Below are positions 9,635-46,943 of a stretch of DNA of 47,224 nt, piece by piece. This stretch comes from a virus: positions 1 through 47,224 of the IMG/VR virus record IMGVR_UViG_3300030329_005016. The stretch is one strand, 5' to 3'. Both the position numbers and the translations under genes were made by a program. The notes under the pieces were generated by a model. The model was not told the DNA's origin, did not search any database, and was given only the letters and a program-made list of their open reading frames with translations. Within the stretch, counting starts at the first letter, position 1; each line of letters begins with the position of its first letter.

Positions 9635-9659
9635 GGAAAGGTGTGGTTACGGTGCAAAA

Positions 9660-13057: not shown

Positions 13058-13479
13058 AAAAAAGACCGCGCGAACGCCACTGCTCCGATCTCTTCCACAA
13101 AGCCCGGCGCGACGTGAAGAAGGTCGTCGTCGGAGAAGCACGGAATGGTGTTGCCCCAGAGCGTGCGAGAGTCGCTCGGAGCGAAGCGGGGGATCGGCTG
13201 CCCGGTCTTCACGCTCACGAGGTCTTCGATGCCGGTCACGGCAAGGCGGAACGCTTCGCGGTGTCGGCGCACATCCGTCGGCGCGTCCATGACGAACGCC
13301 TGGAACGCGTCGGCGTCGATGTGCTTCAGCGTGAAGACGGTCGGCTTCTCGCCAGGGTGGATCTTCACGAGGGACGCGTCGCGGGTGCGCATGTAACGCT
13401 GTGCGTCGCGTCCCATGCCGATGACGTCGACCGCCATGTCAACGACGGAATAGACCTTGATGGCCTTGGTGCTGTTCAT
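12859..13479 (-). CDS. Tail assembly chaperone, gpG-like
   Basis: 206 residues; the ATG at 13477-13479 is preceded by GGAAGGGAG. It lies between the tail tube and tape measure genes with a second overlapping frame behind it, the hallmark of tail assembly chaperones, which bind the tape measure protein during tail polymerisation and are absent from the finished particle. The first 140 residues are a mixed alpha/beta domain. The last 65 are Pro/Ala-rich and then Glu/Ala/Thr low complexity. No family motif recognised; the call rests on position and frame layout. Confidence 0.75.
   Translation of the reverse strand: MNSTKAIKVYSVVDMAVDVIGMGRDAQRYMRTRDASLVKIHPGEKPTVFTLKHIDADAFQAFVMDAPTDVRRHREAFRLAVTGIEDLVSVKTGQPIPRFAPSDSRTLWGNTIPCFSDDDLLHVAPGFVEEIGAVAFARSFLPPNSAGSYPPPPLLLAAYTARLAHHGVAAIEKARSLEASRKSGEPEAEAPTPDGGEKATAATATE
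13057..13063 (-). promoter_or_regulatory. Candidate -1 frameshift heptamer TTTTTTA
   Basis: On the minus strand the codons TCT TTT TTA at residues 139-141 of the chaperone contain T TTT TTA, the X XXY YYZ form of a slippery site in the correct phase. A -1 slip there enters the frame that runs to 12545. No strong stem-loop is seen just downstream. Confidence 0.5.
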
Positions 13480-13499
13480 GTCTCCCTTCCTCTCTCAGC

Positions 13500-14735
13500 T
13501 CACAAGAAATGGAGCCGAAATGCCGCGTATTGGATGTCGGCGTCGTCCGCCTGGGTCGTGAAGCTGTCGGTGGTCGCCGAGAAGGTGACCGCCTGGTAGG
13601 CGAGTCCGCCCTCGTCGATCAACTGCACGTTCGTCACCTGCGCCTTCGGCACCTCGAGCAACACCACAAAGCCGGCGACCGTTCCGATCTGAATGGTCAA
13701 TCCGTAGTATTCGCCGTCGTCGCGCTCCGTGAACCAACTCGTGTCCTCGTAGGGAATGTGAGCAGTCAGCGTGCAGAATGGCACCGCGCGGTTGCGCCGG
13801 TAGCGCTTGATGGTGTTGGTGCCGCAGCCCGAGCGGACGGGCGTGTACACCGGCGAGTTCATCGCCAGGTTGATGGTCGCCGCGTCGAGGCACACGCCGG
13901 AGATGGAGCCGGACGCAACGCCGTTGATGGCGCGCAGGCTGCCGGTGTACGCGACGGGCGTGAAGGTGCCGTAGTCCGCGACGGTGATCGCGGCGCTCGG
14001 CTCACTCGCCCAGTTCGCGAACGTGATCGTGAACGAGATGGTAGGGATTTCGCCGAGGGCGACGGTGATGGCCGGTGCGCTTGTGACCTGCCCACCCATC
14101 AGAAGCCAGCGGTCGTCCTGCTCGGCGCCCTCAACGATCATCTGAATCGACGTCAGCGGGTTCGCGGTTGGATGAATGGTCGTGCCCGCATAGAGAACAT
14201 CGCTTGCCGTAGGTGTGGCGGAGAGCTGGTCTTTGAGTTGAATCGTGGTTGCCGCCAAGCCGCGGACAGACCTCGCTTCAAAAACACCCGCAGAGTTGAC
14301 CCATCCGATGGACTCACCACCATCCCAGCCAGCAGGGGAGCCGATGAGCTGGTATGAGGCTGCGGCTGATGTGACATCACCACCCGTGTTCTCGTCGTTC
14401 GCCCCGCCGAACACAATCTTCAGCAGGAGCAAGAGCGCTTGGTCGTCGAACGCGGGCGAGTCACTGCCATCGCCCGCAGCCACACCCGTCGCGCCCAGTG
14501 GCACGGTTACCGAGAGCTCGGCGCTCTTCGGACCGAAGACGATCTGATTCCGCGCGTCGATGCGCTGTTGCGCAACCTGCGCGTCGAGCTCCGGAAGGTT
14601 CAGCGTCAGGTTCGCAGTGCCCTCCTGAAACGGAAGGTCGAGATACGTTGCCGAGCCCGTGACGTCGGTGGCGAACGCGCCGTCGGCTTCTTCGGTGAGC
14701 GCAATCCGTCGTAGCGCGTGCAGTTCGATGCTCAT
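13500..14735 (-). CDS. Major tail (tube) protein
   Basis: 411 residues. Beta-rich throughout with Thr/Val/Gly strands and a distinct C-terminal part after about 290 that could be an Ig-like decoration domain. It is placed between the tail terminator-type gene and the chaperones, where the tube protein normally lies. It is long for a tube protein, which agrees with an added domain. The downstream 20-base gap to the chaperone gene contains its ribosome site. Confidence 0.75.
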   Translation of the reverse strand: MSIELHALRRIALTEEADGAFATDVTGSATYLDLPFQEGTANLTLNLPELDAQVAQQRIDARNQIVFGPKSAELSVTVPLGATGVAAGDGSDSPAFDDQALLLLLKIVFGGANDENTGGDVTSAAASYQLIGSPAGWDGGESIGWVNSAGVFEARSVRGLAATTIQLKDQLSATPTASDVLYAGTTIHPTANPLTSIQMIVEGAEQDDRWLLMGGQVTSAPAITVALGEIPTISFTITFANWASEPSAAITVADYGTFTPVAYTGSLRAINGVASGSISGVCLDAATINLAMNSPVYTPVRSGCGTNTIKRYRRNRAVPFCTLTAHIPYEDTSWFTERDDGEYYGLTIQIGTVAGFVVLLEVPKAQVTNVQLIDEGGLAYQAVTFSATTDSFTTQADDADIQYAAFRLHFL

Positions 14736-14741
14736 GGGTCC

Positions 14742-15275
14742 TCAGCTCGTGGGTGTGGTCACGCGGACGACGCCGGTGAATCGGTGGGTGGTGACAAGGC
14801 GCCCGTTCGTGCCGCCGGAAAACTCGATGGTCCCCAGCGCAGACGAGACGTCGTTGAGACAGCCGGACACGAGCCCGGTCGCAGACGCGGCCTCCGTCGC
14901 CGTCAGGTTGCCGGGCCACGTCAACGCTTGCGCGATACTGTGGCCGTCTTCGATGGCGAGCGCAGACAGCGCGGTGCGCGCGTCGGTGCTCAGGTCCTGG
15001 TAACCGCTGAAGTCGCGCACCAAGCGGACGTCGACGGTGATTTCTTCGAGGGTGAATGTGCCCTGGCGCGGTGGCCGTGACGCATGCGGTCGACGGTCCA
15101 CGATGCGTGCCTCGATGCGCGGCGAGGTCAGCGAGCCCACGCTGTCCGCGAGGACGTCGAGGGCCTCGTGCGTCCCCGGCTCGTACGTGTCGGCGGCGAC
15201 CGTGCGCACCGCGCCGTAGCCATCCTCGAGCACCTCACGGATGCGCGTCAGGATGGCGAGGGCGGGAAAGCTCAA
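14742..15275 (-). CDS. Tail terminator-like protein
   Basis: 177 residues; ATGA-type overlap with the upstream gene. The N-terminal helix (ALAILTRIREVLED) followed by strands and the order tail completion protein, this gene, tube protein match the gpU-like tail terminator that stops tube growth and joins the head. No family motif beyond the layout. Confidence 0.6.
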   Translation of the reverse strand: MSFPALAILTRIREVLEDGYGAVRTVAADTYEPGTHEALDVLADSVGSLTSPRIEARIVDRRPHASRPPRQGTFTLEEITVDVRLVRDFSGYQDLSTDARTALSALAIEDGHSIAQALTWPGNLTATEAASATGLVSGCLNDVSSALGTIEFSGGTNGRLVTTHRFTGVVRVTTPTS

Positions 15276-15757
15276 GGTCGGGTGCCGTGGATCACGTAGG
15301 CGATGACGTCAGCGCGCGTCTTCTCGAGCCACGCCGCAGCGGGTCCGCTCGAAAAGTCGGGGTTACCGTCTTCGTCCATGGGGAGGTATGCGCGGCGCGG
15401 CATGGTGCTCGTGCCAGTGACGTGAAACACGCCGTACTTCGCGGGCGCGCCGGACGTGCCGAATACGATGGCCTTACTCCGCACCTGCGCGTTGGACGCT
15501 TGGCGAAGCGCGCCGGTGTCGAGCAGCGGCTTGCTCGATCCCTGCCGTCGCTTCTCGACGGTCGACTCTGCGAGCGCTTGCCAGCCCGCACCGTTCGGCG
15601 AACGCGACGTGCGGAACGACTCGTCAATGACGCTGCCCAGAAGAGCCGCGCGGCGCTTCAGGATGGGGTCGAGGTTCGCGAGCCGCTCGCCGAGGGCTTG
15701 GATGCGCTGCGGGAGTGTGCCGAACGACTTCTCGTCGATGGTGAATCCGTCAGCCAT
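15272..15757 (-). CDS. Virion morphogenesis / tail completion protein (Mu gpG, P2 gpS type)
   Basis: 161 residues. A helical N-terminus, the segment SRSPNGAGWQALAESTVEKR, then LLDTGALRQASN and near the end YGVFHVTGTSTMPRRAYLPM. The L-x-D-TG-x-L-R and H-x-x-G-x-x-x-MP-x-R-x-(Y/F)-L pattern is characteristic of the phage virion morphogenesis family (P2 gpS/Mu gpG-like head-tail joining or tail completion proteins). The stop/start overlaps on both sides couple it to connector and terminator genes. Confidence 0.85.
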   Translation of the reverse strand: MADGFTIDEKSFGTLPQRIQALGERLANLDPILKRRAALLGSVIDESFRTSRSPNGAGWQALAESTVEKRRQGSSKPLLDTGALRQASNAQVRSKAIVFGTSGAPAKYGVFHVTGTSTMPRRAYLPMDEDGNPDFSSGPAAAWLEKTRADVIAYVIHGTRP

Positions 15758-16230
15758 CAGACGAGGTTCGCGAGGTCACGCATGACCGGGCGCCGGAAGA
15801 TGCGGCGCGACGTCGTGCCGGTGGTGACCGTCTCTTCGGTCGGCGTGAACTTCGAGCCGCCTGTCGCTTCGGAGAGGTTCGACACGCTCGTCGACGCGAG
15901 CGGGAGCTCGCCGGAGCGCACGCCCTCGGGGATTGGAGCGAGGATGGCGGCGAGCGACGGCGGGATGTCGCGGGCCTTTCGTCCGTACGCCATGTGCACG
16001 AGGAACGAGAGCGCCAGCGCCTTCACGCTGTCGTCGTCAGTCTCTTCGGCGGGCGCATACCCGGCCTGCTTCGCGCTGGCGAGCGCAAGGCTCGAAGCGA
16101 TTTGCGCGGCGCGGGTAAAGCGAGTGCTGTACTCGCTGCCGCTGTCACCGTCGTCGGTGAAGAGAAACTGACGGACCTTGCCGTCGCACACCGCATCGAA
16201 GTCGGCGGTGTCTACGTAGGCGATGGGCAT
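15757..16230 (-). CDS. Head-tail connector, Mu gp36-like
   Basis: 157 residues. The N-terminal part has a helix-rich fold with small Ala-rich helices (AAQIASSLALASAKQAG) and VHMAYGRKARDIPPSL, the layout of the DUF1320/Mu gp36 family of connector proteins. The C-terminus is Thr/Ser-rich ending in RRIFRRPVMRDL. It overlaps the downstream morphogenesis gene by one base. Confidence 0.7.
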   Translation of the reverse strand: MPIAYVDTADFDAVCDGKVRQFLFTDDGDSGSEYSTRFTRAAQIASSLALASAKQAGYAPAEETDDDSVKALALSFLVHMAYGRKARDIPPSLAAILAPIPEGVRSGELPLASTSVSNLSEATGGSKFTPTEETVTTGTTSRRIFRRPVMRDLANLV

Positions 16231-16258
16231 TCGTCAGTCCTCGAAAGTAGGTGGCGCG

Positions 16259-16295
16259 GCCCCGGAGGGAAGGAAGGGAGAGGTCCCTCCGGGGC
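16259..16295. other. Strong 12-bp hairpin between capsid and connector genes
   Basis: GCCCCGGAGGGA at 16259-16270 pairs perfectly with TCCCTCCGGGGC at 16284-16295 around a 13-base loop. There is no T-run on either side, so it is not a standard intrinsic terminator. It lies in the only sizeable gap (84 bases) of the structural operon and could be an RNA stability or processing element that raises capsid mRNA over downstream mRNA. Confidence 0.75.
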
Positions 16296-16314
16296 GTTGC
16301 CTGAGAGTGACGCA

Positions 16315-16551
16315 CTACGAAGAGGCGTCAGTCGTGGGCGCCTTCGAGCTCGTCGAAGACTTCGCCTGTTCGGCGCTGGCTTTCTGGGGTGCCTTCCCCG
16401 AGTCACGCGACTTGTCGCGGACCTTGCGAGGCTTCACCCACCCGCGCTCAATGGCGCGAGTGAGTGCCTCCGACTCTTCGAGGTCCACCACCGCGTCGGT
16501 GGCGTACCGCCGACCGTTGATGATGCATGCCTCAGCGAATCGAACCTTCAT
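16315..16551 (-). CDS. Small head protein (Mu gp35-like position)
   Basis: 78 residues, start overlapping the capsid stop (TGATG). The first 40 residues look like the small beta-hairpin plus helix unit seen in Mu gp35-like proteins (INGRRYATDAVVDLEESEA). The tail is Lys/Ser/Ala low complexity. It is followed by the hairpin. Function unknown. Confidence 0.65.
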   Translation of the reverse strand: MKVRFAEACIINGRRYATDAVVDLEESEALTRAIERGWVKPRKVRDKSRDSGKAPQKASAEQAKSSTSSKAPTTDASS

Positions 16552-17486
16552 CAGGCGTCGAGGCCAGTCAGAAGGAAGCCCATGTCGTCCTGGACTGTCT
16601 TCTCGTCATCCGAGAAGGCCACCTGAACGTACTCGCCACCGCGCGGGCCCTTGTGGGGCGCGTCGTACACGCGGGCCTGAACCGGCATGCTGGCGGTGAA
16701 GCGGAAGGTCGCAGCGAAGAGACCCACTTCGTTGACGGGTTCGCCGGTTGGGACGCGCACGATCGCGAAGGAGTCGTCGCCCCATACACGCTCATGCGAG
16801 ACGGCTTGGCCGGGGTTCGCGGTGTTCTTGATGGCCGTTCCGATGAAGATCTCATCGAGCCCCAAGATCTCCGCGATACGAGACATCGTCTCGACGCGGT
16901 TTTCGCTGCCTGGGCCACGGAGGTCCGCATGGCGGCGAAGAGCGTTTCCAATCTCGAGACCACCAACGCCGACAAGCTTGCTGTCGCCGATCATGCTCGG
17001 AGGGATGGCCTCGATGGCAGCAGCCACATCCTCGAGAGGAGTGCCCGCGTCCGAGAACCAGTTGGAGCCGTTGGTCGTGTTGGCTGCCGCATAGTTGCCC
17101 GCCGTCAACAGCAAGTTCGCGACACGGATCTCACGGCTCAAAAGAAGCTTGTTCATGACGAGCTTCGCCGCGTATTCGCGTGGCTTCTGCGGGTCATCAG
17201 CGTTGGCGACCTCGTCGACCGTGACGAGACGCCGAAGCGCTCGGTCGGTCACCGAGTAGTTGTCGACCTCGATGGCGTAGGGAACGTCATTCGCTTCGCC
17301 GTCGGTTGCGATGCGGTCGCTCTGTTCGGTCGTCCAGTCCGAAAGCTTGTACTTCCGGTAACTGTCCGAGCGGTGGTCGACCTCGATGATGGGGGCCACG
17401 GTGTCGGCGATGTAGTCGCCGTTGGTGTAGCCCGAGATGAATGTGGAGAGTGGTCCGTCGAGATGGACGTCGTTTGCGTTGCTCAT
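16551..17486 (-). CDS. Major capsid protein
   Basis: 311 residues. The sequence pattern PLSTFISGYTNGDYIADTVAP, then a polar linker, then VTDRALRRLVTVDEVANADDP fits the N-arm and start of the HK97-type capsid core of phages whose capsid gene follows a decoration protein. The C-terminal part contains GDDSFAIVRVPTGEP and short strands as in the P-domain. It is preceded by a small decoration-type gene and a protease/scaffold gene, the normal order of a head module. No delta domain is present; the separate scaffold makes that unnecessary. Confidence 0.85.
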   Translation of the reverse strand: MSNANDVHLDGPLSTFISGYTNGDYIADTVAPIIEVDHRSDSYRKYKLSDWTTEQSDRIATDGEANDVPYAIEVDNYSVTDRALRRLVTVDEVANADDPQKPREYAAKLVMNKLLLSREIRVANLLLTAGNYAAANTTNGSNWFSDAGTPLEDVAAAIEAIPPSMIGDSKLVGVGGLEIGNALRRHADLRGPGSENRVETMSRIAEILGLDEIFIGTAIKNTANPGQAVSHERVWGDDSFAIVRVPTGEPVNEVGLFAATFRFTASMPVQARVYDAPHKGPRGGEYVQVAFSDDEKTVQDDMGFLLTGLDA

Positions 17487-17496
17487 CTTGGCCTCC

Positions 17497-17904
17497 TCAG
17501 ACGATCACGAAGGGGTTGTTGAGAAGGAAGACGGTGAACTGGTCACCGTCCGCTGCTGCGTCCTGCATGGCGCGGCCGACGACGCGAAGGTCGGCGGTCG
17601 TGGTGCCAGGCGCGATCGCAGCGAGCTTGCCCGTGGTCCCCGCGATGGCCACGAGGGCACCGCGAGTGATTGCCGCGCTGGCGATTCCGATGGCCGGACC
17701 CCAGTAGCGGACATCGACGTCTTCGCCGTCAGCTGCAGCGTGTGCAGCGATGCCGACAGGTTCGTCGTTGGCAGCCGTCGGAGGCGAGACCTGGTTGTCT
17801 GCCGAGCCGGCGATCACTGCCATGTGCTTGGTAACGGCCCCATCGGCCTCGAAGCTCTGCGAGAGCCCTTCGGTCATCTGGTAGGCCATGAGATTGGTGC
17901 TCAT
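17497..17904 (-). CDS. Head decoration protein (DUF2190-like)
   Basis: 135 residues with AGGAAAAC ribosome site before the ATG at 17902-17904. Repeated Gly/Ala strands such as AVIAGSADNQVSPPTAANDEPVGIAAHAA and GALVAIAGTTGKLAAIAPG are typical of the small beta-barrel decoration/stabilisation proteins encoded next to capsid genes. Ten bases separate it from the capsid start. Confidence 0.75.
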   Translation of the reverse strand: MSTNLMAYQMTEGLSQSFEADGAVTKHMAVIAGSADNQVSPPTAANDEPVGIAAHAAADGEDVDVRYWGPAIGIASAAITRGALVAIAGTTGKLAAIAPGTTTADLRVVGRAMQDAAADGDQFTVFLLNNPFVIV

Positions 17905-17957
17905 TGGTTTTCCTATTCATTTGGCCGACTGCCCCGGGCCAGCGTGGTTGGGTGTCG

Positions 17958-18004
17958 GTAGCGGGAGCGCGGGGCCGTGCGTCGCTACCTGCCGGCAAGC
18001 CGGC
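17958..18004. other. Two small inverted repeats in a 109-base gap
   Basis: GTAGCG (17958-17963) pairs with CGCTAC (17983-17988), and GCCGG CAAG CCGGC (17991-18004) is a second hairpin. There is no T-run. The pair lies between the protease/scaffold gene and the decoration gene. It could affect mRNA stability. A weak observation. Confidence 0.5.
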
Positions 18005-18013
18005 GTGATTCGT

Positions 18014-18934
18014 TCAGCGGTTGAGCGCCTCGGGGAAGTTGGCCTTCGCGTAGGCGTAGGAGCGGCTGCGCAGATCCTTGCGGCTCAGCGACACGCCCTC
18101 CTTGGCGGCTTCCTTCTTCACGGCCTCAGTGGCCGCGCTCATCGCCTCGTCCTGGGTCATTTCACCGCCCAGGTTTCGCGGAGCATTGCTGGGCTTCGAC
18201 GGCTTGTAGGCCAGCGACTTTGGACGAGCCGAGGGACCAGCAAGGCGCTTCGATAGCGCCTTGGTAGCTACCGTCAGCGCTTGCAAACCATAGTCTTCGT
18301 CCGTCGACATCTCGCGGAACGCCGCAGCCTCAGCGTCAGTGATGTCGCCTTCAACAATGTGCTTTGAAAGCGACACTTCAAACTGAGCGCGCTTCAGCTC
18401 GACCTCACGGGCGGCGTCGCGTGTCTCAAGCTCCGCAACGCGCCTAGAGACCTTACCGAGTTCGTCGATGGTCTTCACATGGCTCTTGCTCATCGCAGCC
18501 ATGGGTGCCTCGCCACCTTCGGATGGCATCGCGTCGGCCGGCGTACCCTCGGCGGGCGCACCACTCAGCGCAGCCATGACGGCGTCGCGCTGTTCTTCGA
18601 GCGAAGCGAGTAGCGCGGGAAGGTCGAGGCCCAGCTCCGTCGCCATGGCTTCGAGAGCGTCAGCAGCGGCACCGCGCGCGGCTTCCGCCTCAGTGTTGGG
18701 TGCGACTTCCTCGGAGGCGTCAGCGGGCATGTCGCTCGCCTGAACCACCTCGGCATCGTCGGACGCGTCGGACGCTTCGACGTCTTCGGCGGGCGCTTCC
18801 TCTTCGGAGGGCGCAGCGCCGTCGAGGGCAGCTTGCTTCTGCTTCTCGGCCTCGACCACCGCGAGCAGCTGCTCGATGGTGAAGTCGTCGCCGAGTTCCT
18901 TCATCGCCTTGGCGATCAGTTCCTTGTCGGTCAT
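18014..18934 (-). CDS. Nested scaffold protein, in-frame internal start
   Basis: An ATG at 18932-18934, in the same frame as the protease, has AAGGA seven bases upstream and begins MTDKELIAKAMKELGDDFTI, where the acidic coiled-coil domain starts. The 306-residue product would be a protease-free scaffold. Nested scaffolds of this kind are known for lambda C/Nu3 and Mu I/Z. Expression here is inferred from the start signal. Confidence 0.7.
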   Translation of the reverse strand: MTDKELIAKAMKELGDDFTIEQLLAVVEAEKQKQAALDGAAPSEEEAPAEDVEASDASDDAEVVQASDMPADASEEVAPNTEAEAARGAAADALEAMATELGLDLPALLASLEEQRDAVMAALSGAPAEGTPADAMPSEGGEAPMAAMSKSHVKTIDELGKVSRRVAELETRDAAREVELKRAQFEVSLSKHIVEGDITDAEAAAFREMSTDEDYGLQALTVATKALSKRLAGPSARPKSLAYKPSKPSNAPRNLGGEMTQDEAMSAATEAVKKEAAKEGVSLSRKDLRSRSYAYAKANFPEALNR

Positions 18935-19507
18935 TTCCTTGTCCTTTCGTGCGAGCGCACGGGGTTGTGCGCGCCCCGCACGGGACGCGGCGAGACGGGT
19001 CATCCCGTCCAAAAACGCGGCGGGGACGATCCCCAGCTCGAGCAGTTCGGGCCCGATGTTGTCGCCCGACACCTCGTCGACGGAGTCGAACGCGATGACG
19101 ACCGAGCAGTACCGGTACTCGTCGGCTTCGATCTTCGAAGCGGTGCGCGGCGTCCACTTGATGCGTGCGAACAGCGCTTGCCGACCCTTCTCGTCGACGT
19201 CGCGGCGGAGCTCTGAGATCCAACCCGCCGCACCGAGGTACGCGGCCTGATCACTGCCCACGCCGGGGTGACCGTGGACGACCGGCACGTCGTCATCGCG
19301 GCGATTGAAGTTCGCGATGACCTGGTCGAAGATGTCGGCGGTCAGCTGAAACTCACCGCTCGAATGGCCGAGCCACTCGCCTTCGTAGGCGATTTGCTGC
19401 CACCGCGAGCCGTCCGCTTCCTTCGCACCGGCAAGCCGTGCGAGCGCACGGATCCCCTCGTCCCCTCGCGCCTTTTCGCGGAGGGGGAAGAATCGGAAGT
19501 CGTGCAT
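18014..19507 (-). CDS. Prohead protease with scaffold domain (Mu gpI-like)
   Basis: 497 residues. The start at 19505-19507 overlaps the upstream stop (TGATG). The N-terminal 180 residues match the Mu gpI-type protease layout: IAYEGEWLGHSSGEFQLTAD, VPVVHGHPGVGSDQAAYLGAAGWI, then EYRYCSVVIAFD and LGIVPAAFLDGM. From about 195 on the protein is acidic, Ala/Glu-rich and coiled-coil, a scaffolding domain, ending in a basic tail (KPSKPSNAPRNL...YAKANFPEAL). The protease matures the prohead and the scaffold shapes it. A second start inside the gene would yield the scaffold alone. Confidence 0.88.
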   Translation of the reverse strand: MHDFRFFPLREKARGDEGIRALARLAGAKEADGSRWQQIAYEGEWLGHSSGEFQLTADIFDQVIANFNRRDDDVPVVHGHPGVGSDQAAYLGAAGWISELRRDVDEKGRQALFARIKWTPRTASKIEADEYRYCSVVIAFDSVDEVSGDNIGPELLELGIVPAAFLDGMTRLAASRAGRAQPRALARKDKEMTDKELIAKAMKELGDDFTIEQLLAVVEAEKQKQAALDGAAPSEEEAPAEDVEASDASDDAEVVQASDMPADASEEVAPNTEAEAARGAAADALEAMATELGLDLPALLASLEEQRDAVMAALSGAPAEGTPADAMPSEGGEAPMAAMSKSHVKTIDELGKVSRRVAELETRDAAREVELKRAQFEVSLSKHIVEGDITDAEAAAFREMSTDEDYGLQALTVATKALSKRLAGPSARPKSLAYKPSKPSNAPRNLGGEMTQDEAMSAATEAVKKEAAKEGVSLSRKDLRSRSYAYAKANFPEALNR

Positions 19508-19929
19508 CAGAGCAACGCAGCGAGTGCTGCGGCCTCCATCTCGTCGCGGGTGTCGGACTCGTCGAGCTCGACGCCAAGCGTCGCAGCCCATGCGGCGAGG
19601 TCCGCTTTGTAGGGTTGGTCCGCCATCACGGCGCGGAGCTCTTGCTCCGTCCACTCCGGCGCGGGGTCCGTCTCGGCGACCGCCTCGTCCGCAAAGACGC
19701 AGTCTTCCGGCTCGGTACCCTCTTCGACGTACTCGCGCGCCATGCGTTCGAGTACACGCGCGATGGCCTTCGTTGGCGCGGGGTTGCTGCCGCGGTCGAA
19801 GTGCAAGCCAGTCTGCGGCTTCATGCGGCCACGGCACGCCACGTAGTCGCCATGGCGGACGACGAAGATGAACCCGTTGCGCAGCTCGGAAGCGTGAGCA
19901 GCGGGCGTGATTTCGAGTTCGTAACTCAT
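19507..19929 (-). CDS. Hypothetical head-module protein
   Basis: 140 residues between the minor head protein and the protease, ATGA and TGATG overlaps at its ends. The N-terminus carries strands (GFIFVVRHGDYVACRG) and the second half is acidic and helical (about 75-140). Not recognised. A head completion or protease cofactor role would be guesswork. Confidence 0.7.
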   Translation of the reverse strand: MSYELEITPAAHASELRNGFIFVVRHGDYVACRGRMKPQTGLHFDRGSNPAPTKAIARVLERMAREYVEEGTEPEDCVFADEAVAETDPAPEWTEQELRAVMADQPYKADLAAWAATLGVELDESDTRDEMEAAALAALL

Positions 19930-20948
19930 TGAGCCTCTTCAATGGCGGCGCCTGGCGCGCCTCGGAATCCGTCGGTGATGGCGCCGTCGAGGTCGACGTC
20001 GCGCGAGAGCTGCGACTCGTCGGGCGGGTCCTCGCTCAACGTCATTACGCAGCGGCAGTTGAAGGAGTTGGGCGGATAGACGCTCGCGCCTTCGGCATCG
20101 CCCACCGGCCATGCCTTGCCCTCGAGGGCGGCGTGTTCCGGTCGCACGCGACTGTCACCCACGGTGCGATAGACCCACCACAGGCCCGAGCCGAGCTCGG
20201 GGTCGGTCTGCTGTCGGAAGCGGCCCGCGTTGTAAGACACGCTGGTCGACGTCCTGAAAACCGCCTCAAGGTACCGGCGAACACCGCCAGCGTACCCTTC
20301 GGCGTCCACGCCGCCTTGCAGGCTCTCGATGAACTCGCCGAGCCCCGGACCTTCCGGAGCCATGGCGCGCTGAATCTGCGTGAATGCCTGTCGGACCACA
20401 CCATCGGCGATGGCGAGTCGGACCGTGAACGCTCGGGAGCGCTCGGCGTCGATGAGCGAGTCGAACTCGTCGGCCGGCATGATAGCGCGCGACTCGAACT
20501 GCTCGATGGCGTCCGCGAACGCGAGGTTGACGAAGTTGCTGGCGGTCTCGCCCGTGGCTTCGAGGCTTCGGCTTTTGCTGCCGACCTCGATGTCTCGGAC
20601 GAAGAGCTGACCGGCCATGTGCGTCTGTGCGTTCGCCTGCCAGATGAGGTTGGCGAGCGCGGGGCTTTTGTCGACGACCTCGCGGCCCCAGCGTTCCACC
20701 ACCTCGCGGGCGGCGGCTTCGCTGGTTACTCCGGAGAGGTCGTAGGCGAGTTGGTCTCGGAAGTCTTCGAAGAGTGCGGCGCCGGTCATGGCACTGCGCA
20801 CGACGAGTTCGCGCGGGCGTCCGATCAGTCGAACGGCACGCTGTCGATCTGCGTCCGACAACGCGAGGAGGTCGGCGAAGTCTGCGACAGCGGGAGACTC
20901 ATTTGTCGGGCCTTGCGTGTCGCTCGCCGGCGTGACCGGCTCGACGCT
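19926..20948 (-). CDS. Minor head protein, Mu gpF-like, continuing the portal by -1 shift
   Basis: 341 residues counted from the first codon after the CCCTTTA heptamer. The first 110 or so look like the C-terminal helical domain of Mu gp29-type portals (ALANLIWQANAQTHMAGQLF). From about residue 120 the protein is the phage head morphogenesis (MuF) family: NLAFADAIEQFESRAIMPAD, ERSRAFTVRLAI, SVSYNAGRFRQQ, WWVYRTVGDSRVRPEHAALEGKAWP, and FNCRCVMT with its Cys pair. There is no start codon with a ribosome site near the frame entry; an ATG at 20787-20789 is too far inside and lacks a site. The protein therefore probably reaches the ribosome as a portal fusion, or the sequence has a one-base error in a C-run. 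Confidence 0.8.
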   Translation of the reverse strand, partial: SVEPVTPASDTQGPTNESPAVADFADLLALSDADRQRAVRLIGRPRELVVRSAMTGAALFEDFRDQLAYDLSGVTSEAAAREVVERWGREVVDKSPALANLIWQANAQTHMAGQLFVRDIEVGSKSRSLEATGETASNFVNLAFADAIEQFESRAIMPADEFDSLIDAERSRAFTVRLAIADGVVRQAFTQIQRAMAPEGPGLGEFIESLQGGVDAEGYAGGVRRYLEAVFRTSTSVSYNAGRFRQQTDPELGSGLWWVYRTVGDSRVRPEHAALEGKAWPVGDAEGASVYPPNSFNCRCVMTLSEDPPDESQLSRDVDLDGAITDGFRGAPGAAIEEAQ

Positions 20949-32451: not shown

Positions 32452-33419
32452 GCTGCCTCCTCGCGGGTCAGGTCCCGCTCCACCGTGATGTCTTCACGCC
32501 GCTCGAGTGAGCGAAGGATCTTGCTCGCGTAGACGTGCCCCGCTGGGTCGTCATCGGTCGCCACGACCACGTGCGTATGCTCGGGCAACGTGTCGGCGAG
32601 CTCGTCTGTCCAGCTGCCGGAGCGGATGCCGATGCATGCTTCGCGCTGCGACTCAAGAAGCCAGTCGCGCTCACCCTCACGAACCACGATGATGCCGCCC
32701 GGCATCTGGTCCCGGATGATGTCACGGGCCGCTGCGTTGGCCATCACGAGCCCGCGGCCGGACACACCTGTCGGCGAGCCGCTCTTTGGAATCCCACGAA
32801 CCGCGCTCGCCGAACGAGCCACGTAGCTCACGGGTCGCATCTGCGGGTCGCGCAACGGGATGATCAGCTCGTAGCAGCCATCGCCCCATTGACGGCCCAC
32901 CGTGCGCGACCATCGGAACCTCGACGGCGCCGATAGTCCGCGAAGCTCGTCAGCAACCGAGGCGGGGTCCACACCCCACGACTCGACGGCAGAGGCAGGC
33001 CAGCCCGTGGCGCGAACGCCAGCACGCCAAAGCGCGAACACCTCGGCGCGTGGCGGACGGGGTGCCTCCTCCTCTTCAATGCGGCGAACGAATGTCTCAC
33101 GAACGTTGTCATGCTCGCGAACTCCAACGAGCGCGGCGAGCTCTCGAATGATCTCACGCGCCCTCTCCGGCTTCACGGGGATTGCATCCGCGCCGCCCTC
33201 GCAGGCTGCGATAAACTCGATGGGCCCGCCCCCTACCTGGCATTGGCTGTGGCAGTACCAGGCCAGCGTGCGATCGCTGACAGACAGGTTGTCCCCACGC
33301 CCGCCATGGATGGGGCAGGCGCCCCGCCACTCGCGACCGTGCTTGCGGATTTTAGCTCGCGACGTGAACACGTCCTCGACGGTCAGACGCGGAAGCACCT
33401 GGTCTCGAAAGAAGCCCAT
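32448..33419 (-). CDS. DNA primase (zinc-finger and TOPRIM)
   Basis: 323 residues from the ATG at 33417-33419 (TAATG overlap). A CHC2-type zinc finger: Cys35-Pro-Ile-His38 and Cys56-His-Ser-Gln-Cys60. TOPRIM: GGIIVVREGERDWL (Glu) and VVVATDDDPAG (Asp cluster), at about 245-295. It makes primers for phage DNA replication. The size is short for a primase-helicase and agrees with a separate DnaB. ATGA overlap with the initiator gene. Confidence 0.9.
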   Translation of the reverse strand: MGFFRDQVLPRLTVEDVFTSRAKIRKHGREWRGACPIHGGRGDNLSVSDRTLAWYCHSQCQVGGGPIEFIAACEGGADAIPVKPERAREIIRELAALVGVREHDNVRETFVRRIEEEEAPRPPRAEVFALWRAGVRATGWPASAVESWGVDPASVADELRGLSAPSRFRWSRTVGRQWGDGCYELIIPLRDPQMRPVSYVARSASAVRGIPKSGSPTGVSGRGLVMANAAARDIIRDQMPGGIIVVREGERDWLLESQREACIGIRSGSWTDELADTLPEHTHVVVATDDDPAGHVYASKILRSLERREDITVERDLTREEAA

Positions 33420-33610
33420 TACAGCGTCTCCTCCCGCCACCGCGAGAACAGCTGCGCGAGCCGCAGGTACTCTCGCGAGACCTCCTCAGCGCGCGCATGC
33501 TGGCCAGCGTTGCGCAGGTCGTGAGCCACACGCGCAATCGCCTCGAGGGCGTCACGCTGGCGAGAGAGCAGGCGCTTGCGCCGCTCGGCGCTGAGGTCGA
33601 TGACGCTCAA
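33419..33610 (-). CDS. Small helical protein with TTG start
   Basis: 63 residues. A TTG at 33608-33610 overlaps the upstream TGA (TTGA). The product is a basic helical hairpin (RRKRLLSRQRDALEAIARVAHDL, with LAQLFSRWREE at the end). Downstream it overlaps the primase start. Not recognised. Confidence 0.6.
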   Translation of the reverse strand: MSVIDLSAERRKRLLSRQRDALEAIARVAHDLRNAGQHARAEEVSREYLRLAQLFSRWREETL

Positions 33611-34095
33611 TGGACTCGCCCCGCATCGATGGCGACCGTCGCGCCGTTCATCACGCGCTGCGCCATGTCGCGCACGTCCCGCGCCTCGTTGCGAATCAGG
33701 TGCAGCTCGTTCGACGCGATCTGACCCGTGCGCAGCGCCTCCGCCATGACGCACATCAGTTCGCCAGACTCACGCGCCATCACCGCCAGCGCTTCGTGCC
33801 AGCAGCTCGCTCCGTCGGTGCCGATGCTCCCGCCGATGACGAGACCCAAGCGCTCGGCGTCGCGCTTCGCGTACCAGGCTTGCATCGCCTCCGGCATGCA
33901 CGCGATGTCCGCGGCATTCGGGAGCTCGGCGCATTCTGGATCCGTCCAGCGCTGTACCTTCGACGCCGCACGCCCAAGGGCCCGCGCCACGTCCTGCTGC
34001 GTGGTCTCGGTCTCGTAGAGCGCGCGTGCAAAGGCGCGGCTCTCATCACGCACGGCCTTGGCCCTGCGCATCTTTGCAGTGTCTCGCGGGCTCAT
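33607..34095 (-). CDS. HTH regulator, CII-like position
   Basis: 162 residues; the ATG at 34093-34095 has GGGAGG seven bases upstream. TTQQDVARALGRAASKVQRW near residues 29-48 is a helix-turn-helix. The rest is helical. It is the first replication-side gene after the Cro-like gene, so it is placed like lambda cII. Its target is unknown. Confidence 0.7.
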   Translation of the reverse strand: MSPRDTAKMRRAKAVRDESRAFARALYETETTQQDVARALGRAASKVQRWTDPECAELPNAADIACMPEAMQAWYAKRDAERLGLVIGGSIGTDGASCWHEALAVMARESGELMCVMAEALRTGQIASNELHLIRNEARDVRDMAQRVMNGATVAIDAGRVH

Positions 34096-34139
34096 CGGCG
34101 CACCTCCCGAACTGGACCGCCAGCCCGCACAGTGAGAGC

Positions 34140-34547
34140 ATGGAGGTGATGAAACGAACGATCCTGATGGTCGCGCTGCTGGTCGGCGCTTGTGGGGATG
34201 ACGCTGCGTGGAGCGTCTTCGACTACTCGTGGGAGCAGACCGTTGTCGCTGGAGACATGCCCTGCGGGCCGCTCGGTGAGCCGCTCTGGGATGGGCCACC
34301 ACCCACGCCGGATTGGGCGACGCAACCAACCGAGGAGTGGCGCGTCATCAGCAGCACACCCGGCGAAGAGTTCACCGTTGAGCGCACACTCCTGCCGGGC
34401 GGTGACACGTACACCGTCTCGTGGACCCGCTACGTACCGCCGTCGGGCTTCGAGCCCGAAGAGATGCGCAGCATCCGTCTCGACGGTCGCATCACTGGCG
34501 ACTCGTGCGACGCAGGCATGCAGTGGCAAGGGACGCTGATCGAATGA
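34140..34547 (+). CDS. Lipoprotein on the opposite strand (moron)
   Basis: 135 residues from the ATG at 34140; a second ATG lies at 34149. MKRTILMVALLVGACGDD is a lipoprotein signal with lipobox LVGAC. The mature part has paired Cys and Trp/Pro-rich strands. It is divergent from the CII-like gene (44-base gap) and converges with the Cro-like gene (2-base gap), so it sits backwards within the leftward early operon. As with 9660-9986, an envelope function in the lysogen, such as exclusion of other phages, is an inference. Confidence 0.8.
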   Translation: MEVMKRTILMVALLVGACGDDAAWSVFDYSWEQTVVAGDMPCGPLGEPLWDGPPPTPDWATQPTEEWRVISSTPGEEFTVERTLLPGGDTYTVSWTRYVPPSGFEPEEMRSIRLDGRITGDSCDAGMQWQGTLIE

Positions 34548-34549
34548 CA

Positions 34550-34798
34550 TCACGCCGCCTCGCCATCGCGCTGCGCAGCAGAAATGCTGCGTTCAAGCTC
34601 GACAGGGTCCATGCCTAGGCCCTCGGCGAGACGGCGAACCATCGCGCGCCCTGGCTCAACGCGGCCGTTCTCGTACTTCCAGAGGGCGCCCAGGGTGATG
34701 CCTGCGCCTCGGGCAAGCTGCGACTTGTTCAGCCCGCGCTCTTTCCGAAGGTCGCGAATCACATCGCCGCTCGGCAACTTGTCTTCGTCTGTCCTCAT
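34550..34798 (-). CDS. Cro-like HTH regulator
   Basis: 82 residues. HTH_3 domain at about 12-66: VIRDLRKERGLNKSQLARGAGI, GALWKYENG and RRLAEGLGMDPVELE. It shares several words with the divergent repressor at 34868-35296 (GAxWKYE), so the two may read related operators. Small size and position make a Cro-type role likely. Confidence 0.8.
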   Translation of the reverse strand: MRTDEDKLPSGDVIRDLRKERGLNKSQLARGAGITLGALWKYENGRVEPGRAMVRRLAEGLGMDPVELERSISAAQRDGEAA

Positions 34799-34867
34799 GC
34801 ATACGCACAGTTGAGGATGGCGCAGGCAATGTCAAGCGTACTCACACAAGATTATTGCGGCGTGGGG
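34799..34867. promoter_or_regulatory. Divergent switch region between Cro-like and repressor genes
   Basis: GCATACGCAC (34799-34808) and GCGTACTC (34836-34843) are both repeated in the second regulatory gap at 36229-36274. On the minus strand a perfect TTGACA is at 34835-34830, and AACTGT is 17 bases downstream. On the plus strand GATTAT (34850-34855) precedes the repressor. Both promoters would be overlapped by the shared words, candidate operators. Confidence 0.5.
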
Positions 34868-35296
34868 ATGGCCCGAACCACTTTTCGTGAGGTGAAGACC
34901 ACCGGAGAGAGGATTCGCGAAGCACGCGCGAGCATCAAAATGAGCCAAGCGGAGCTGGCTCGTCAGCTCGGCATCTCGCCCGGCGCGATGTGGAAGTACG
35001 AGAAGGACAAGGTCCAGATGGGTCCGGAGCGCCTCGCCGACACCGCCAAGGTTCTTCGCGTGTCGATGGAGTGGCTGCTCACTGGTGATGAGCCGGATGC
35101 CCCGCCAGACAAAGGTGCGAAGATCTCCCCGCCCGCCTACCACGAGTTCGTTGAGAAGTTCGGCGAGTTCTTCGACGAGGATGTAGTGAAGCTGCTCGAG
35201 GGTCCCGCTCATAACCGCATGGGGCCATTCGGTGAGCCGACAGCGAAGGAATACTACGAGTTGGCCAGGCTCTGGCAGCAGCGGAAGGACCGATGA
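34868..35296 (+). CDS. CI-like repressor (ImmR type)
   Basis: 142 residues from the ATG at 34868 (GTGGGG upstream). HTH_3 at about 12-66 (GERIREARASIKMSQAELAR, then GISPGAMWKYEK). No S24 autoprotease part; the C-terminal 60 residues are helical. Repressors of this build are removed by a separate ImmA-like protease, and one is encoded nearby. Likely keeps lysogeny by blocking the early promoters. Confidence 0.8.
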   Translation: MARTTFREVKTTGERIREARASIKMSQAELARQLGISPGAMWKYEKDKVQMGPERLADTAKVLRVSMEWLLTGDEPDAPPDKGAKISPPAYHEFVEKFGEFFDEDVVKLLEGPAHNRMGPFGEPTAKEYYELARLWQQRKDR

Positions 35297-35538
35297 GCGA
35301 GCAGGCTGAGCGGCGCTCTGGCGGTGGGTTTGCCCCCAACGGGTGCAGCGGCTTTGTCTCGCTCGTCACGCTCGCCATAGTCCTGTGGGCAATCCATAGC
35401 TGGTACACCGGTGCTCTCGCCGACGAGCATCAGCGTGGTTGGGACGATATGAAAAACGAGGTCCGCTTCTCGTGCCAGCGCCGGGACCCAGAGCGCCGAA
35501 ACCCTGTGTGCCGCGACATGCTAGGGCACTATTGGTGA
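35293..35538 (+). CDS. Small membrane protein coupled to the repressor
   Basis: 81 residues; the ATG at 35293 overlaps the repressor stop (ATGA). One hydrophobic segment at about 20-38 (FVSLVTLAIVLWAIHSWYTGAL) followed by a hydrophilic tail with two Cys. Co-expressed with the repressor, so present in the lysogen; superinfection exclusion is a reasonable guess. Its 3' end overlaps the end of the immA gene by 18 bases. Confidence 0.7.
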   Translation: MSEQAERRSGGGFAPNGCSGFVSLVTLAIVLWAIHSWYTGALADEHQRGWDDMKNEVRFSCQRRDPERRNPVCRDMLGHYW

Positions 35539-36228
35539 ACTCTGCGCCTCCCAGCCCTCCGCCGGAGTGACCACCCAAACGCCATGAGGCGCCCACCACG
35601 CCCGCGCCTCGCCTTCGGTCAGGTGGTAGACGTCTCGCGCGCAGTCCTGCGCTAGCGCACGCTCCCAGGCTGGCACACGACGCCGCGAGAAGCCTCGCCC
35701 CTGAAGCCACGGTGAGCGCCAGCGTCTCGCAAGCTGCGTCCCCTGCCATGAACTGACTACGGCGGCGCGCACCTCTGTCGTCCGGCGTGTGGCCACCTCG
35801 AGGCTCACGCCGTAGCGCTCGGCGAGCTCGACCATGTGCCATCCAGTGCGCCCAAGGTCGCGCTTCCACGCGCCATCCGGCATCAGGATGCCCGAGGCGA
35901 TCCCGTTCGCGATGCGCTCCGAGTGCGAGTTGAGGCCCGCGTGCGCTGCGATGATGTGCCCGAGCTCGTGGGCTGCGTCCCACCGCTGGCCCGCTTCGCT
36001 CTTCCGCTCGTCGATGCACACCAGGCCGCCCCTGTTCATCGATAGCCCGCGGTAGCGGCACCAATGGACGCCCCAGGCATCCAGCAGTTCAAACGGGCAC
36101 ACGGGGCCGCCGCCAGCGTGCACGGAGTCGAGGGCAAACCGGGCTGCGCCGGCGATATCGAGGAGCGTTTCGTCCATGGCGCCCATCGATCCACAGGGCT
36201 GTGACAGACAAAAAGCAACTTTCTTCAT
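35521..36228 (-). CDS. immA: ImmA/IrrE-type metalloprotease
   Basis: 235 residues; start at 36226-36228 with AAGGAG five bases upstream. WDAAHELGHIIAAHAG holds HExxH (His87, Glu88, His91), and SERIANGIASGILMPD gives the third ligand Glu104, the ImmA/IrrE signature. In ICEBs1 and phage phi105 ImmA cleaves the ImmR repressor to start induction. Here it is convergent with the repressor operon and divergent from the rightward operon. The C-terminal 90 residues are Trp/Arg-rich and may sense or bind DNA. Confidence 0.88.
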   Translation of the reverse strand: MKKVAFCLSQPCGSMGAMDETLLDIAGAARFALDSVHAGGGPVCPFELLDAWGVHWCRYRGLSMNRGGLVCIDERKSEAGQRWDAAHELGHIIAAHAGLNSHSERIANGIASGILMPDGAWKRDLGRTGWHMVELAERYGVSLEVATRRTTEVRAAVVSSWQGTQLARRWRSPWLQGRGFSRRRVPAWERALAQDCARDVYHLTEGEARAWWAPHGVWVVTPAEGWEAQSSPIVP

Positions 36229-36274
36229 GCGTACTCCTTGACGCATACGCACTCAGGAGTATCTTGCGTGCCTG
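36229..36274 (+). promoter_or_regulatory. Rightward early promoter with candidate operator
   Basis: TTGACG (36238-36243), 16-base spacer, TATCTT (36260-36265), then ATG at 36275, so the transcript would be nearly leaderless. GCGTACTC (36229-36236) and GCATACGCAC (36243-36252) lie beside and inside the promoter, and TACTCCT/AGGAGTA form an inverted repeat across it. The same two words occur at 34799-34843, which suggests control by one repressor. Confidence 0.6.
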
Positions 36275-36556
36275 ATGACGACGCGGAACAACGAACACAC
36301 CGACTACGACGGCCACACCTACGCAGAGCGAGCCGACGAATGGCCCGTCTGCGAGTGCTGCGGTCGTGCGTTCGCAGAAGTGTTCCTGCCCCGCCGCCTC
36401 GGCGCTGGGCTGGTGCGCTTCCCCGAGCCTCGACTGGAGTCGGCGTGGGGCGCGGCGGTGGCTGGTGAGCCGCACTTCGGCGCGTGCGAGGCGTGCGCGG
36501 TTGTCGTGGTGATGGAGCTCGGCGACGAGCGGGAAGAGGAAGAGGTGGCAGCGTGA
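36275..36556 (+). CDS. Zinc-finger-like hypothetical protein, first gene of rightward operon
   Basis: 93 residues. CECC at about 26-29 and CEAC near 70 form two Cys pairs. The C-terminus is acidic (ELGDEREEEE). Its ATG lies about 9 bases after the -10, so translation may be leaderless. Function unknown; being first in the operon, an early regulator or anti-host protein is possible. Confidence 0.7.
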   Translation: MTTRNNEHTDYDGHTYAERADEWPVCECCGRAFAEVFLPRRLGAGLVRFPEPRLESAWGAAVAGEPHFGACEACAVVVVMELGDEREEEEVAA

Positions 36557-41570: not shown

Positions 41571-42985
41571 GAGGTCACCGCAACGGTTCAATAACTCACG
41601 AGTACGGGCGCTTCCGGGTCCGCGTGAGCCTCGACGACGGCACGCGCCTCAGCCTCGGCACATACGCAACCAAAGAGGAAGCGGAAGACATGCTCGCCGA
41701 ATCGCTGCATCGGCTTGAAGAACAAGAAATGATGACCGGCGCTGTGACCGTCGCTGCGTACGGAGAGCGCGTGCTCGATGCGCGCGAGCGGTCCGGCCTT
41801 CGAGGTGTCCGGCGTGAGCGTAGTGCGTTCCGAACGAACGTCGCGTCGTCGTCGCTCGGCACGCTTCCGCTTCGAGCCGTGACCCGACGCGATGGCGACC
41901 GGTGGATCGGAGAGCTGCTCCGCCGACCCTCAACACGTGGCGGCACGCTGGCTCGCGGCACGGTGGTGCGAGCGCTCCGGATTGCCCGCGCAGTCTTCGA
42001 CCAGGCAAGCTCGGAGCTGCTCATCGATGCCAACCCTCTGCGCGAGGTCCGGGTGCCCAGCGTCGCCCGGACTGACGAGCCGTGGACGTTCCTCACCCTC
42101 GACGAGATCGAGCGGGTCACGACCTGCGAAGACATCCCCCTCGAGAAGCGCTCCGCGTACATCGTCGGCATCTACGCCGGATTGCGCGCCGGTGAGCTCT
42201 GGGGGCTCCGGTGGGATGACGTGCGCCTCGATGGTCGCCCCGAGCTCGTGGTGCGCCACTCGTACCGCGGGCCCACGAAGGCAGGCCGGGTAGGGCGCGT
42301 GCCATTGCTGGCTCCAGCAGTCGCAGCGCTGAGGCAGTGGCGCGACGAGGGCACGCCGCATGCGCACGTCTGGCCGGCACCCGGTGGCGGGTGCTTCGCC
42401 GATGGGTACGATGGCGGATGGGCCGATCGCCGGTACCGAACGGGCAAGGGTAAGCTGAAGGTGCGCCCCGGCCACAAAACGGTGGCCAGAGTGTCCCGCC
42501 CGGTCCGGTTCCATGACCTACGGCACACCTGCGCGAGCCACCTCGTGATGGGCTCCTGGGGCCGCGCGTGGCGCCTTGAGGAGGTGCGGGAGATGCTCCG
42601 GCACTCGACCACGAAGATGACGGAGCGGTACGCCCATTTGGCGCCCGATGCGCTCCATTCGGCTGCCGCAGCGACGGCAACCAGCTGGCCGGACGCTGGC
42701 CGGAGGACGGAAGACAAAAAGGCTCCCGAGGGAGCCTCCGTGCCTATTTTTTCGGGGGTGGAGCGACGGGGGATCGAACCCCGGACCTTCGCACTGCCAG
42801 TGCGTGCCAGGGGCGAAGGGTCTCGGGAGGTTAGGGCGCTTTCCGGCCAGCGTCCGGCCAGGGAACTGGCTATCCGCTATTTGCGGGCGTTGGTGGTGGG
42901 AGATCCCATCCGCGATCGCGTTGGTGCTGAGCTCGCAGAGGCGGTGCTCGCCGAGAGCATAGACGATGAGAGCGAGGTGGGGTGA
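41567..42985 (+). CDS. int: Tyrosine integrase with attP inside its 3' end
   Basis: 472 residues. N-terminal arm-binding part (about 1-50), core-binding helices (55-155), catalytic domain with Arg207 (GLRAGEL), Lys238 region, His316-Arg319 (HDLRH), His346 and Tyr355 (TERYAHL). Normal tyrosine integrases end soon after the Tyr; here the frame runs on another 117 codons through a terminator, a tRNA-Ala 3' half and both arm-type repeats, and ends in TGATG overlap with the next gene. Integration would cut the gene near codon 410 and exchange the last 60 or so residues. Mx8 IntP of Myxococcus shows the same design. Confidence 0.92.
   Translation: MRGHRNGSITHEYGRFRVRVSLDDGTRLSLGTYATKEEAEDMLAESLHRLEEQEMMTGAVTVAAYGERVLDARERSGLRGVRRERSAFRTNVASSSLGTLPLRAVTRRDGDRWIGELLRRPSTRGGTLARGTVVRALRIARAVFDQASSELLIDANPLREVRVPSVARTDEPWTFLTLDEIERVTTCEDIPLEKRSAYIVGIYAGLRAGELWGLRWDDVRLDGRPELVVRHSYRGPTKAGRVGRVPLLAPAVAALRQWRDEGTPHAHVWPAPGGGCFADGYDGGWADRRYRTGKGKLKVRPGHKTVARVSRPVRFHDLRHTCASHLVMGSWGRAWRLEEVREMLRHSTTKMTERYAHLAPDALHSAAAATATSWPDAGRRTEDKKAPEGASVPIFSGVERRGIEPRTFALPVRARGEGSREVRALSGQRPARELAIRYLRALVVGDPIRDRVGAELAEAVLAESIDDESEVG
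42685..42704. repeat. Arm-type inverted repeat, left (right copy 42842-42861)
   Basis: CTGGCCGGACGCTGGCCGGA at 42685-42704 is the exact reverse complement of 42842-42861. Each copy is two 9-bp units CTGGCCGGA spaced 11 bases, one helix turn. They flank the attP core symmetrically, as integrase arm sites do. Confidence 0.85.
42716..42737 (-). terminator. Intrinsic terminator after the tRNA-like core
   Basis: On the minus strand AGGCTCC-CTCG-GGAGCCT is followed by TTTTT (42720-42716). It starts 21 bases after the 3' end of the tRNA segment and would end the host tRNA transcript once the phage is integrated. In the int direction it is antisense, with a weaker T-run at 42747-42752. Confidence 0.85.
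42759..42804 (-). other. attP: attP core: 3' half of tRNA-Ala(GGC)
   Basis: Read on the minus strand: anticodon arm (loop 42800-42794, CTGGCAG, anticodon GGC), variable loop, T arm CGGGG-TTCGATC-CCCCG (42783-42767), acceptor strand TCGCTCC and discriminator A at 42759. The 5' half is absent and the first anticodon stem pair is A-A, so identity to a host gene probably begins at 42804. This marks integration into a tRNA-Ala gene, with strand exchange around the anticodon. Confidence 0.88.
42842..42861. repeat. Arm-type inverted repeat, right
   Basis: TCCGGCCAGCGTCCGGCCAG, exact reverse complement of 42685-42704, with two 9-bp units. It lies on the other side of the tRNA-derived core, 37 bases from the end of tRNA identity. 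Confidence 0.85.
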
Positions 42986-46249: not shown

Positions 46250-46440
46250 CACTCGCCCCCGAACTTCTCGGCGGCCTCTGCGTACGCCGCAGCCTTCGCC
46301 AGCGAGGTCTTCAGCTCACCCGAGAGGATGGCGTCCACCTTCTCGCGGTCGCCGCTCTTCACGGCGGACACGATGGCCTTGCCGATGGAGAATGCCGTCT
46401 CCGCGACTTCGAGCGCGTCTTTGATCCAACCCAGGTTCAT
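46249..46440 (-). CDS. Small helical lysis-region protein
   Basis: 63 residues, start at 46438-46440. Amphipathic helices (WIKDALEVAETAFSIGKAIVSAV, short membrane-active look). ATGA overlap with the upstream gene. Not recognised. Confidence 0.6.
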   Translation of the reverse strand: MNLGWIKDALEVAETAFSIGKAIVSAVKSGDREKVDAILSGELKTSLAKAAAYAEAAEKFGGE

Positions 46441-46943
46441 GGCGTTGCCTCCTCACAAAGCTGGCTCCCAAAGTGGGCGCCAAGGTCGATGGCGGTGTTC
46501 AGCGCTGCCGGCACTTCGAGCCCCGCAGCTACGACGGCATCGCGAAGCCGCCCAAGCGAGCCCATCAGACACTTTGCGACGCGGACGAAGTTGCGGTCGT
46601 CGCCAGTCTCGACCCAAATGTCGAGACCCGCTTGCGTCACGAGCAGCTTGCCCTTTGAGATACGCAGCGCCACTTCGGCGGCGTCGAGCTCGCGCATGGC
46701 TTCGCGAAACTCCGCCATCGAAGACACCTCCTCGAGCGCCTCGCGCGAGCGCGACGTGTACCGCTCCGCGACCTCTACGTCGGTGGCTTCGAGGCCGCGC
46801 GCCGATGCCGTCAGCACGCTTTGCGCAATGTCTGTTGGCTGTGCGGACGCACCACACCCACCGCACAGCGCGACGAGCACGGCTGCGACGATGAGCACAC
46901 CGATGCCTTCAAGGCCGAAGTGGTCGAGTTTTCTATTCAGCAT
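46437..46943 (-). CDS. Membrane-anchored or lipoprotein lysis-region protein
   Basis: 168 residues. LIVAAVLVALCGGCGAS is a hydrophobic segment with Cys residues near 27-30; the lipobox is imperfect (CGGC). The remainder is helical. Position among lysis genes suggests a spanin or other envelope protein; the family is unknown. Confidence 0.65.
   Translation of the reverse strand: MLNRKLDHFGLEGIGVLIVAAVLVALCGGCGASAQPTDIAQSVLTASARGLEATDVEVAERYTSRSREALEEVSSMAEFREAMRELDAAEVALRISKGKLLVTQAGLDIWVETGDDRNFVRVAKCLMGSLGRLRDAVVAAGLEVPAALNTAIDLGAHFGSQLCEEATP

Follow-up and report, generated by a model that had tools for sequence, protein, structure and literature searches.

A probable lipoprotein gene between the cro-like and cII-like genes of a temperate phage: a candidate first gene of an establishment transcript

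The virus record IMGVR_UViG_3300030329_005016 (47,224 nucleotides; the whole stretch analysed is called the window) is the 47.2-kb record of a temperate tailed phage, in which a gene for a probable lipoprotein of 132 amino acids (34149–34547, plus strand) fills the gap between a Cro-like and a CII-like gene. This gene is oriented opposite to both neighbours and co-directional with the CI-like repressor gene, and the same slot is occupied in a second phage. The preferred reading, held tentatively and at somewhat less than an even chance, is that the gene leads a CII-activated transcript of the pE/pRE type (lipoprotein, antisense cro, cI), with a product that acts in the envelope, most likely by blocking superinfection.

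The 34149–34547 frame is a real gene, as its codon usage shows. The plus-strand open reading frame (ORF) at 34140–34547 gives a codon log-odds of +27.9 versus +0.9 for the antisense ORF at 34092–34553, and 34149–34547 is the sole good coding frame of the 454-bp gap between the cro-like and cII-like genes. Among 3000 first-order Markov versions of this gap, the best ORF score was 13.5 against the observed 26.9, and a single version gave an ORF of 132 amino acids; the codon log-odds and the shuffled gaps together rule out a spurious ORF. Translation from the alternative in-frame ATG at 34140 would yield 135 residues instead of the 132 obtained from the ATG at 34149. The earlier note on this DNA, which had placed a second lipoprotein gene between Cro-like and CII-like genes, is thus borne out as regards both the ORF and its neighbours.

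The product starts MKRTILMVALLVGAC, and its N-terminus, (M)KRTILMVALLVGAC, matches the broad PROSITE pattern PS00013, with a basic n-region and a hydrophobic stretch ending in Cys. The predicted signal peptide, MKRTILMVALLVGA, together with the candidate lipidated Cys (34191–34193), covers 34149–34193 on the plus strand and ends LVGAC. The protein is probably a lipoprotein with a predicted lipid attachment at this Cys, the qualification being due to the Gly at position −2 of VGAC, which departs from the strict lipobox [LVI][ASTVI][GAS]C. The same residue is an argument for cleavage by signal peptidase I (V-G-A/C being a possible site) or for a retained anchor, either of which would make the product periplasmic, secreted or membrane-bound rather than a lipoprotein, and the Myxococcus xanthus consensus L-[AST]-[GA]-C (PMC3222651) is likewise not followed. 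This alternative is nevertheless unlikely, given the match to the broader pattern and the similar ending, ALGGC, of the other lipoprotein-like gene of the phage. The predicted mature domain comprises 118 residues and is acidic (net charge −15); it contains no Lys and three Cys, one of which is the candidate lipid site. In M. xanthus, most lipoproteins of the inner membrane carry Lys at position +2 (PMC3222651); because the residue found here is Gly, an outer-membrane location is taken as a default guess.

No convincing relatives of the lipoprotein were found in Pfam, PHROGs, NCBIfam, the PDB, phages, plasmids, viral contigs or 379 Myxococcota genomes. Three weak matches were discarded, one being a frame with an internal stop (L027), one a stretch within a longer lipoprotein-like protein (L028) and one a stretch within a 1110-residue open frame (L035). 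A single-sequence structural model (predicted local distance difference test score, pLDDT, 39) was too poor for use. The best weak match, at 28% identity over 101 residues, falls within a 433-residue myxobacterial lipoprotein-like protein and could point to a passenger recently acquired from a myxobacterial chromosome and without a role in the phage. Such an origin appears quite improbable, since the 379 Myxococcota genomes contain no convincing homologue and a second, different phage also has a gene in this slot.

That second phage is a prophage in G008, a metagenome-assembled genome (MAG) named Deltaproteobacteria bacterium HCUG1432-5, in which an integrase-like gene stands beside chromosomal-looking genes. 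Its gene order, CI (+), Cro (−), a 134-residue signal-bearing protein (+) and CII (−), is exactly that of the window, the slot gene is coding, and identity to the window proteins amounts to 38% for CI, 30–34% for CII and 37% for ImmA. A comparison of the 36 kb around the locus against the complete set of window proteins recovered CI, CII, ImmA and a weak integrase match and nothing else; the structural genes of the prophage gave no match. Since the structural genes of the two phages differ, the immunity module is exchanged between unlike phages and takes its filled slot along. The distance from the cII start to the cargo start is 44 nucleotides in both (with the 34140 start in the window), and the cargo and cro stops are 2 bp apart in the window and 8 bp apart in G008. 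An identical 11-mer next to cII, partly the cII ribosome site, is common to the two 44-nucleotide gaps, as is a 10-mer (0.13% of shuffles). The two cargo proteins reflect either an ancient common origin followed by fast divergence or the repeated filling of a favourable slot.

Two further observations concern the G008 locus (L071). A second signal-bearing, Cys-containing gene with a GTG start, VLAVVMAVACGEAG, lies just upstream of the immA-like gene (2565–3077, minus strand). Two genes follow cI on the same strand (366–1837, plus strand) and may be defence cargo; by eye, the first presumably recalls HipA-type and the second DUF3037-type proteins.

The left-to-right arrangement in the window is cII-like (−), a gap of 44–53 bp, lipoprotein (+), 2 bp, cro-like (−), operators, cI-like (+), a gene for an 81-residue protein, immA-like (−), and operators with a pL-like promoter. 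The CII-like protein (33607–34095, minus strand; 162 amino acids) is a helix-turn-helix (HTH) regulator matching PHROG 101, the family that also contains CII of phage 186 and that is matched by all four CII-like orthologues (best E-value 4e-8). Its model shows an XRE-type HTH in both Foldseek and VIA-align; Foldseek ranks 186 CII first at a non-significant E-value of 0.18, which is not counted as proof, and 186 CII is not among the VIA-align matches listed. A search of viral contigs with the CII alignment gave no relatives. The Cro-like protein (34550–34798, minus strand; 82 amino acids) is an HTH repressor (Pfam HTH_31, 3e-14), and its gene meets the lipoprotein gene tail to tail, with the stops 2 bp apart. 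A CII-family activator gene downstream of the first lytic repressor gene is a feature of CII-pE establishment systems of the 186/lambda type, and by its PHROG 101 match the window has this arrangement.

With the Cro-like and CII-like genes on the minus strand and the lipoprotein gene on the plus strand, early transcription toward the left would run antisense to the latter, in agreement with the earlier note. What that note overlooked is that this antisense placement belongs to a known switch layout and is no hazard: the gene points in the direction of cI, and its start lies where phage 186 has its CII-activated establishment promoter, pE. The order cI, pR, first lytic repressor, CII is common to the window, 186 and lambda, and the slot corresponds to the pE region (pRE in lambda) and is read toward cI. 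The pE promoter of 186 extends over the gap between apl and cII and 28 nucleotides into cII, is directed toward cI, and has CII sites that overlap the cII start. The lambda pE-cI RNA is antisense to cro, and PreX in its leader is no more than a possible ORF (PMC3349717). Neither 186 (30 bp) nor lambda (118 bp) has a gene between the equivalents of cro and cII, and the leader toward cI holds no established gene, whereas the window has a 400-bp lipoprotein gene there.

By position from phage 186, the predicted pE-like establishment promoter region covers 34068–34139 on the plus strand, that is, the gap from the cII start to the lipoprotein start plus the first 28 nucleotides of cII, and transcription would start about 10–20 nucleotides before the lipoprotein ATG. 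It is this geometry, together with the antisense course of the lambda pE-cI RNA and the PHROG 101 match of the CII-like protein, that suggests the gene as the leader of the establishment transcript. No terminator-like site was found on the plus strand in 33400–36400, and the 2 bp between the lipoprotein and cro stops leave next to no space for one; an RNA started before the lipoprotein gene would therefore continue across cro in antisense and reach cI.

During lytic growth, the leftward transcript from pR would run antisense through the lipoprotein gene and keep its product low. As CII accumulates, a CII-activated promoter in the short gap between the lipoprotein and cII starts would produce the transcript with lipoprotein, antisense cro and cI in that order, the lipoprotein would be made with the first burst of repressor, and, once anchored in the envelope, it would most likely block superinfection of the new lysogen.

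Several observations weigh against this reading, in addition to the Gly at −2 of the candidate lipobox. No sigma70-like promoter was matched at 34060–34148, in a scan with little sensitivity for GC-rich DNA and for promoters that need an activator; for a promoter of the latter kind in such DNA the lack of a consensus match would not be surprising, but the absence lends no support. CII sites were sought at the cII start as an inverted repeat two helix turns apart (186 type) and as TTGC direct repeats (lambda type), while the specificity of this CII-like protein may differ from both. Neither type was found in the window, where the inverted repeat was looked for at the spacing expected from 186; in G008, AGGTGCG/CGCACCT occurs 21 bp apart, within a set of four overlapping matches versus 2.3 expected from shuffles. 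The window CII-like protein alone gives a weak match to PHROG 101 (E-value 4.5e-4), and its pairwise comparison with 186 CII is not significant. The filled slot is known in only two instances, the window and G008. In the related phage G003, which has orthologues of the window CI (32%), ImmA (39%) and CII-like protein (30%), the cro-like and cII-like genes are about 61 bp apart with no gene between them, and in G354 the CII-like gene follows directly after a Cro-like candidate, leaving the slot empty. Finally, the G008 cargo protein has a very short signal and does not match PS00013, and no similarity is detectable between the two cargo proteins (mature parts, z 0.9).

A wider proposal, which is rather doubtful, is that a protein-coding establishment RNA delivers the lipoprotein with the first CI burst, so that exclusion would begin at the lysogenic decision, that its translation tilts the collisions of the convergent promoters toward lysogeny, and that the slot is filled by fast-diverging or exchangeable lipoproteins across myxobacterial phages. 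In 186 and lambda, the pE/pRE RNAs are described as lacking translation in the region of overlap with pR transcription, and work on these two phages has indicated that an RNA polymerase is far more likely to survive a collision when its RNA is translated than when it is not (PMC6593788); a translated leader could for this reason favour lysogeny. The same observations are in keeping with an explanation in which the RNA itself matters: the insert would lengthen the untranslated leftward stretch (454 nucleotides between cro and cII, versus 118 in lambda), the antisense RNA would tune cro and cII, a translated establishment RNA would, in addition, give its polymerase an advantage in collisions with pR transcription, and the protein would be secondary. 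The codon usage of the plus-strand frame, which is that of a real gene, and the coding nature of the G008 copy argue against it, and it appears improbable as the principal explanation, although an RNA effect and a protein effect are compatible rather than exclusive.

The description of the gene as a moron, given in the earlier note, holds in part. The gene has the look of an insertion, the cro-like and cII-like genes (or their equivalents) being about 61 bp apart in G003, 30 bp in 186 and 118 bp in lambda, yet neither a sigma70-like promoter nor a plus-strand terminator was found nearby, and the status of a textbook moron fails on the terminator. A classic moron, expressed from its own constitutive promoter independently of CII in the established lysogen and with its position beside cII incidental, is further disfavoured by the filling of the same slot in a phage with different structural genes and by the tail-to-tail arrangement with cro within 2–8 bp. 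In its favour, the first lipoprotein-like gene of the window (9660–9986, plus strand; ending ALGGC) is likewise antisense within lytic genes, the tail genes, far from the switch, and the Lpp exclusion genes of coliphages sit in structural gene clusters (PMC11893012). On balance, such a moron is a real but rather unlikely alternative.

The two lipoprotein-like genes are unrelated in sequence, as the earlier note had stated, and both oppose the surrounding lytic genes; the suggestion in that note that the presence of two such genes may reflect selection on the envelope of the lysogen is reasonable. The gene at 9660–9986 has a diverged counterpart in G002 (L009, 17919–18251, minus strand), which occupies the corresponding place in the same orientation (z 5.8 by global alignment, 0 of 1000 shuffles) and is best conserved in the signal region. 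G002 shares 86% terminase identity and syntenic structural genes with the window, but it gave no match to the switch-borne lipoprotein, and its early region differs, the Cro-like gene standing directly before a primase-helicase-like gene. A closer relative by terminase (99%) is the virus record IMGVR_UViG_3300030098_006536. This phage is an example of module exchange, with structural genes close to those of the window and a different early/immunity region (L008, G002 1–20000). Near an amidase-like gene, 46437–46943 (minus strand) encodes a protein that has a hydrophobic segment at its N-terminus and LVALCGGCGASA and that may be a third lipoprotein or be spanin-like.

Superinfection exclusion is proposed as the most likely function by analogy, not homology, with two described systems. 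Ltp of Streptococcus thermophilus phage TP-J34 is a lipoprotein acting in superinfection exclusion whose gene, like that of the window, belongs to the lysogeny module and is carried on the lysogenic strand (PMC3952083); the window gene differs in its Gram-negative host and in its place between cro-like and cII-like genes. The coliphage mEpimmI Lpp proteins are phage-borne exclusion lipoproteins of several sequence types (PMC11893012), and the likeness to the window protein is that of a phage-borne lipoprotein for which an exclusion role may be supposed. The Lpp genes lie in a structural gene cluster, like 9660–9986 and unlike the switch-borne 34149–34547. No similarity to the described Ltp and Lpp families was found, with no Pfam, PHROG, NCBIfam or significant phage match.

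The divergent cI/cro control region (34796–34867) contains the operator-like half-sites GCATACGCA and AGCGTACTC, which are found again at 36226–36254, and half-sites of the form GCATACGCA / GCGTACTC occur in both the pR (34796–34845) and pL (36226–36254) regions, a pattern in keeping with the control of both by one repressor. The CI-like repressor (34868–35296, plus strand; the start could be 34829) carries a C-terminal PPAYHEFV motif. An alignment of CI, searched across the phylum, matched mostly generic HTH domains, and a further CI-ImmA pair in G181 has transposase-like DNA upstream, so that its slot cannot be judged. The 81-residue protein (35293–35538, plus strand), which has one hydrophobic segment and no PHROG or other family, is probably part of the cI operon and co-expressed with the repressor in the lysogen, because its ORF overlaps the cI stop (ATGA). 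The ImmA/IrrE-like metallopeptidase (35521–36252, minus strand, start uncertain; Pfam Peptidase_M78, 1.5e-14) is followed by a pL-like promoter, TTGACG-16-TATCTT, with two operator-like half-sites (36226–36265, plus strand), heading the rightward early operon. An integrase (PHROG 1) is encoded at 41624–42985. The host is very probably a myxobacterium, as judged from one protein, because all six genome loci found with relatives of the window single-stranded DNA-binding (SSB) protein belong to Myxococcota or deltaproteobacterial MAGs.

The arrangement is real and unusual, while lysogeny-module cargo as such is already known: exclusion lipoproteins have so far been described in lysogeny modules and in structural gene clusters, and no description of a lipoprotein gene placed between cro-type and cII genes, where the establishment transcript begins, was found in the open-access papers searched. 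If the preferred reading is true, lysogenic conversion would be coupled to the decision itself and not to the maintenance of lysogeny, and the phage would offer a clean system in which to study the influence of a translated establishment RNA on promoter collision. A guide to genome anatomy is suggested as well, namely that unknown exclusion genes may be sought between cro and cII, on the cI strand, in phages of poorly studied hosts.
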